A stretch of 64,000 nucleotides of DNA from positions 1,300,001 through 1,364,000 of the forward strand of contig NC_088868.1 of the NCBI RefSeq assembly GCF_032884065.1. The letters run 5' to 3'. Both the position numbers and the translations under genes were made by a program. Shown in pieces: positions 22,040 through 53,701 of this stretch (its first letter is position 1; the number at the start of each line of letters is the position of its first letter). The stretch comes from Artemia franciscana. Lineage: Eukaryota; Arthropoda; Branchiopoda; Anostraca; Artemiidae. The notes beneath the pieces are model-generated. The model saw nothing but the letters and a program-made list of their open reading frames with translations. It was not told where the DNA came from and searched no databases.

Positions 22040-22222
22040 TTACCAATAAAACGAACGTTTGACAAAGCCAGCAGCCGAGGAGAGCCAACTAAAAGCAGAT
22101 TCACCAACAGGATGCTTCGTAACAGCTTTGTCACTGACTGGAGGGTCATCTTCAGGCAAATATTCAGGTAAGTTCTCAACAGTTTCGACAGTCTCTTCTG
22201 TCTTCCCAAGATCTTTCATTAC
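22040..22222 (-). CDS. ARMC1: ARMC1 exon 5 (C-terminal tail and stop, residues 212-271)
   Basis: The acceptor is TTTATTTAAG, with an AT-rich rather than C-rich pyrimidine tract. The exon encodes [34 protein letters not shown] and the closing [17 protein letters not shown] before TAA at 22040-22042. The LPEYLPEDD acidic box and the SFYW terminus are the strongest family markers in the window. The terminal segment looks amphipathic, and the family C-terminus is reported to be needed for mitochondrial targeting. This exon is 16 kb from exon 4. Confidence 0.95.

Positions 22223-53701: not shown

Follow-up and report, generated by a model that had tools for sequence, protein, structure and literature searches.

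Human ARMC1 (Q9NVT9, the accession given in PMC12934571) is a protein of 282 residues whose binding surfaces have been described by mutation. The substitution D37R breaks the binding of MTFR, MIRO and TMEM11, and a '4K' mutant uncouples DNAJC11, MTX1 and MTCH2 (McKenna et al, 2025, PMC11980836). According to the same study, its HMA-like domain is without metal-coordinating cysteines, and a conserved C-terminal segment of 15 residues ends in tryptophan. In contrast, a review attributes two conserved cysteines for metals to the heavy-metal-associated domain of ARMC1, and it is also in PMC8666550 that D23, E68, Q111 and S112 of the armadillo region are given as proposed SLC25A46 contacts. Overexpressed ARMC1 is further described as a partial inhibitor of MTCH2, acting via its C-terminal domain (PMC12934571). 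Among arthropods, a table of a 2009 survey lists honey bee GB18050 as the partner of mouse Armc1 (4e-09), and the survey places Armc1 and Mtfr1 among the genes common to honey bee and vertebrates and not to the other ecdysozoan genomes then sequenced (PMC2656531). No paper on ARMC1 in the species studied here was found, in a literature search that was narrow and therefore says little. We describe a gene in a window of 64,000 nucleotides, by which we mean the whole stretch of DNA that was analysed. With a probability of roughly 0.96, we read it as a functional and probably single-copy ARMC1 orthologue of an arthropod, probably a pancrustacean, its function being taken from the human work.

Structure of the gene and strength of the match

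The gene lies on the minus strand at 22040-53701 and is formed by five exons joined via four GT..AG introns, whose phases of 0, 2, 0 and 0 are mutually consistent. The joined frame has 271 codons followed by TAA, and occupies 816 of the 31,662 bases of the span (2.58%). The sequence-only reading had proposed these same coordinates, five exons, 271 residues, GT/AG sites and matching phases, with a coding density under 3%, all of which were reproduced from the sequence; it had left the strand unstated. The features are the following.

53618..53701, minus strand: exon 1, coding part, 28 codons; ATG at 53701, donor GTATAG
47927..53617, minus strand: intron 1, 5,691 nt, GT..AG; contains retroelement fragments
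47760..47926, minus strand: exon 2, 167 nt; acceptor TTTCAG, donor GTAAGT, ends in phase 2; aligns with the armadillo part of human ARMC1
43340..47759, minus strand: intron 2, 4,420 nt, GT..AG
43141..43339, minus strand: exon 3, 199 nt; acceptor TTCTAG, donor GTGAGC; end of the helical domain, linker, start of the HMA-like part
38457..43140, minus strand: intron 3, 4,684 nt, GT..AG; contains a ~292-nt tandem array at 39732-40963
38274..38456, minus strand: exon 4, 183 nt; acceptor TTTTAG, donor GTTTGT; most of the HMA-like domain
22223..38273, minus strand: intron 4, 16,051 nt, GT..AG; contains a ~289-nt tandem array at 32310-34482 and (TA)n runs
22040..22222, minus strand: exon 5, 183 nt including TAA; acidic linker LPEYLPEDD and C-terminal segment ending SFYW

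The start codon stands in the context AAAATGG, with an in-frame stop 19 codons upstream and no ATG between the two. An inner donor of exon 1 (AACAGAG/GTACTC) was rejected in favour of the full exon. Skipping of exon 2 or of exon 3 would lose the frame, whereas skipping of exon 4 would keep it.

The introns and their surroundings hold repeats of several kinds. Tandem arrays with a period of ~290 nt flank exon 4, at 32310-34482 in intron 4 and at 38925-40963 in intron 3, and the two arrays resemble each other, with 83% likeness between the copies at 40114 and 34192. Intron 1 carries on the minus strand an integrase zinc-binding match (PF17921, E 3.4e-8) at 51622-51852 and a frame at 50209-50517 that resembles the end of a LINE reverse transcriptase. 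Long (TA)n arrays, of up to ~300 bases, were observed at 23497-23675, 24826-24921, 27849-27989, 30105-30411, 63010-63081 and 63533-63724, and dispersed repeats several hundred bases long, lying in either orientation and with copies 61-94% alike, at 560-951, 4319-5013, 9334-10306, 25390-27015 and 27462-27853. Rfam at gathering scores and ARAGORN returned nothing in the window.

The comparison with human ARMC1 was made with a provisional version of the human sequence. This query agrees with all 12 residues named in two papers, namely D27, D37, D49, D239, E243, D244, E245 and W282 (PMC11980836) and D23, E68, Q111 and S112 (PMC8666550), and its length fits W282 as the last residue. The joined protein aligns with it over residues 5-271, with 84 of 278 positions identical and a blastp E of 3e-35, a value that refers to a search of one sequence with composition correction off. 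With a local alignment score of 295, it exceeds all of 1000 shuffles, whose scores average 34.7 and peak at 59. Taken singly, exons 1 to 5 had their observed score reached by 0, 24, 120, 0 and 0 of 1000 shuffles respectively; exon 2 alone is thus weakly significant, and exon 3 by itself does not reach significance against the human protein. When the human query was searched against the window by tblastn, nine pieces were obtained at E <= 10, among them exon 5 (E 7.7e-11), exon 4 (E 1.1e-5), exon 2 (E 3.9) and exon 1 (E 4.5). Four pieces unrelated to the gene, at E 0.54 to 1.7, came ahead of exons 2 and 1, a fifth unrelated piece stood at 7.3, and exon 3 was not among the pieces at this threshold. 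The earlier statement that the gene is not visible in any single open frame is thus partly right: it is apt for exons 1, 2 and 3, but not for exons 5 and 4, which stand out in this search.

The choice of exons was further assessed by replacing one exon at a time, for exons 1 to 4, with each AG..GT segment of the right phase, 90-300 nt long and open in the joined frame, the candidates for exon 1 being open ATG-to-GT segments of 30-240 nt. The chosen exon ranked first of 135 for exon 1, first of 64 for exon 2 and first of 156 for exon 4. The chosen exon 3 came third among 63, the two segments ahead of it being shorter forms of this exon that share its donor. Of the five exons, support is weakest for exon 3, and its 5' end is the least certain. 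The explanation that best survives beside our own is one in which the exons are real and the model is slightly off, with exon 3 starting at 43273 or 43267, the exon 4 acceptor lying 3 nt further on, or translation starting at the second ATG (codon 3). The shorter versions of exon 3 score 293 and 290 against 289 for the model, exon 4 from 38453 scores 283 and a start at 53695 scores 287.5, values so close that similarity hardly separates the alternatives. However, the acceptor at 43339 is accompanied by a pyrimidine-rich stretch, whereas the inner exon 3 acceptors, as read by eye, are without a good tract, and the ATG at 53701 is in good context. We consider such a shift of boundaries unlikely. 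At the exon 4 acceptor (38454-38456), TAG is followed by GAG, a possible NAGNAG site whose alternative use would drop one glutamate.

Genomic copies and partner families

Exons 4 and 5, the two exons that were searched for, each have one match in the 1.27 Gb genome, at their own locus. It could be supposed that the window holds a recently dead or unexpressed copy while a working gene resides elsewhere, and the repeat-rich nature of the 31.7 kb span would fit such a proposal. The 271 open codons, the GT..AG borders of every intron and the conservation of key residues stand against it, as does the absence of any other genome match for exons 4 and 5, and we regard a dead copy as very improbable. 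We regard the gene as a probable ARMC1 orthologue of ordinary kind, which looks intact and has long introns rich in repeats. The term orthologue is preferred to homologue because the match extends over the whole length and because exons 4 and 5 have single matches in the genome.

Families of proposed partners were also found in the genome, which is in favour of the ARMC1 reading. PF05308, which we take to be MTFR, has one match, covering 45 of the 244 profile positions with 30.5 bits against a cut-off of 26.3 (E 3.1e-4). PF14972, presumably TMEM11, has three matches within 25 kb, the best at 101.9 bits, and PF11875, which we assume to be the C-terminus of DNAJC11, has two within 5 kb, the best at 75 bits, both above the curated cut-offs. 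For the 43 stretches of bacterial and archaeal contigs that fitted a peptide pattern, relationship was confirmed in no case.

The affiliation of the organism was considered from its mitochondrial contig of 15,822 bases, in which the genes follow the order ND2, COX1, COX2, ATP6, COX3, ND3, then ND5, ND4 and ND4L reversed, ND6, CYTB, and ND1 reversed. COX1 was named by its Pfam family; ND2, ATP6, ND3, ND5, ND4, ND4L, CYTB and ND1 by Pfam and place; COX2 and COX3 by reading of the frames; and ND6 by place, as it is without a Pfam match. The gap between COX1 and COX2 contains a stretch of 64 nt with an outer stem of 7 base pairs and a UAA anticodon loop on a stem of 5 base pairs, which we interpret as tRNA-Leu(UUR). 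The folding energy of this stretch is unremarkable (z -0.04). Insects and crustaceans typically show such an order, with tRNA-Leu(UUR) at that site, and the contig suggests a pancrustacean; a molluscan origin, considered at first, was abandoned in its light. COX1 has 75 matches in the genome, counting pieces and the mitochondrial contig (C6468) itself, with others on C4, C12, C8 and C77. The copies on C4, C12 and C8, contigs of 42-63 Mb, are 99.0-99.8% identical to the mitochondrial one over 1,554 bases, and are recent nuclear copies or assembly errors.

Domains and residues of the predicted protein

The residues to which roles have been given in human ARMC1 are for the most part retained, which, together with the near end-to-end alignment, supports the identification as an ARMC1 orthologue made in the sequence-only reading. 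Two of the three N-terminal aspartates of the MTFR contact are kept, D27 as D19 and D37 as D29, whereas D49 is replaced by G41, adjoined by E42. The four '4K' positions of the acidic linker (human D239, E243, D244 and E245) correspond to E231, E235, D236 and D237 and are thus all acidic, and the C-terminus ends in SFYW, with W271 aligned with W282. The proposed SLC25A46-contact residues behave differently: D23, Q111 and S112 are not conserved, and the counterpart of E68 is D60. The landmark motifs, SFYW among them, occur once each in the six frames of the window, in exons 3, 5 and 5, and GVIS occurs at eight places, one being in exon 4. The conserved landmarks named beforehand were indeed found in the exons of the gene, but the spacing given as 17 residues after GLxxL was loose, since 17 residues separate GL from GVIS and 14 lie between GLxxL and GVIS.

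The joined protein matches a single Pfam family at E <= 1, HMA (PF00403), with 18.8 bits against a curated cut-off of 24.8, residues 154-196 covering profile positions 14-57 of 62; the frame of exon 4 alone gives 20.6 bits, also under the cut-off. The check proposed with the sequence-only reading, a comparison of the spliced protein with ARMC1, HMA and armadillo, thus gave a match to ARMC1, one to HMA below its cut-off, and in Pfam none to armadillo at E <= 1. A phmmer search of PDB sequences with the joined protein returned nothing up to E 10, and no better match to another family appeared in either search. A structure predicted from exon 4 alone, as a single sequence and with the HMA-like part coded by exon 3 left out, consists of one long and one short helix with no strand (mean pLDDT 74.8, pTM 0.42); it is not informative and gives no support for an HMA fold. 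A match to Pox_A21 (E 0.19, 12.8 bits, cut-off 25), given by the open frame that surrounds exon 5, was rejected as due to chance, because it covers frame residues 2-31, where the first 22 positions are intronic, and disappears in the joined protein.

The protein has two cysteines, C32 and C171, and none in the metal loop G146-D152. On the matter of the metal cysteines, the predicted protein agrees with McKenna et al (2025) and does not support the description in PMC8666550. That the gene belongs to another armadillo or heavy-metal-associated family merely resembling ARMC1 can be dismissed as the least probable explanation, for although HMA, its sole Pfam match, is common to many proteins, the near whole-length match, the shared arrangement of parts, the acidic linker, the SFYW end and the want of a CxxC metal site all speak for ARMC1.

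Proposed role and comparison with known systems

By extension from the work in human cells, we propose that the helical domain of the ARMC1 orthologue would recruit the mitochondrial fission regulator (MTFR), while the HMA-like domain, which lacks metal cysteines, would dock on MIRO or DNAJC11. With its final tryptophan, the C-terminal segment may anchor ARMC1 at the outer mitochondrial membrane (TMEM11 or MTCH2). The acidic linker could then allow its release by DNAJC11. The shuttling of ARMC1 between membrane and cytosol would, in turn, tune mitochondrial movement. At the evolutionary level, it can be tentatively hypothesised, with somewhat less than even confidence, that ARMC1 and MTFR form an ancient module that is kept or lost as a unit, both being apparently kept in this arthropod, where the D37 contact, the DNAJC11 acidic patch and the terminal tryptophan are intact. 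As the survey is old and limited, the idea that ARMC1 and MTFR were lost together elsewhere is a lead only (PMC2656531). If this hypothesis is true, the shuttling mechanism described in human cells would predate the split between arthropods and vertebrates. The present work provides a clean model, from an arthropod, of the gene for a conserved factor of mitochondrial distribution. It also shows which of the residues whose roles were tested or proposed in human cells persist at ~30% identity. It leaves existing knowledge unchanged, and can be of use for annotation and for the comparison of ARMC1 with MTFR across arthropods.

Compared with the HMA family (PF00403), the protein matches the profile in part, below the curated cut-off, and without cysteines in the metal-binding loop. 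Honey bee GB18050 is likewise an arthropod gene, and is paired with mouse Armc1 in the survey. The closest comparison is with human ARMC1, from which the Artemia protein differs in its length (271 residues against 282), in an N-terminus shorter by 8 residues, in 6 extra residues around the linker of exon 3, in the loss of D49 and in an overall identity of ~30%. By alignment, the two share, in the same order, a region corresponding to the helical armadillo domain, an HMA-like domain without metal cysteines, an acidic linker and a C-terminal SFYW segment.
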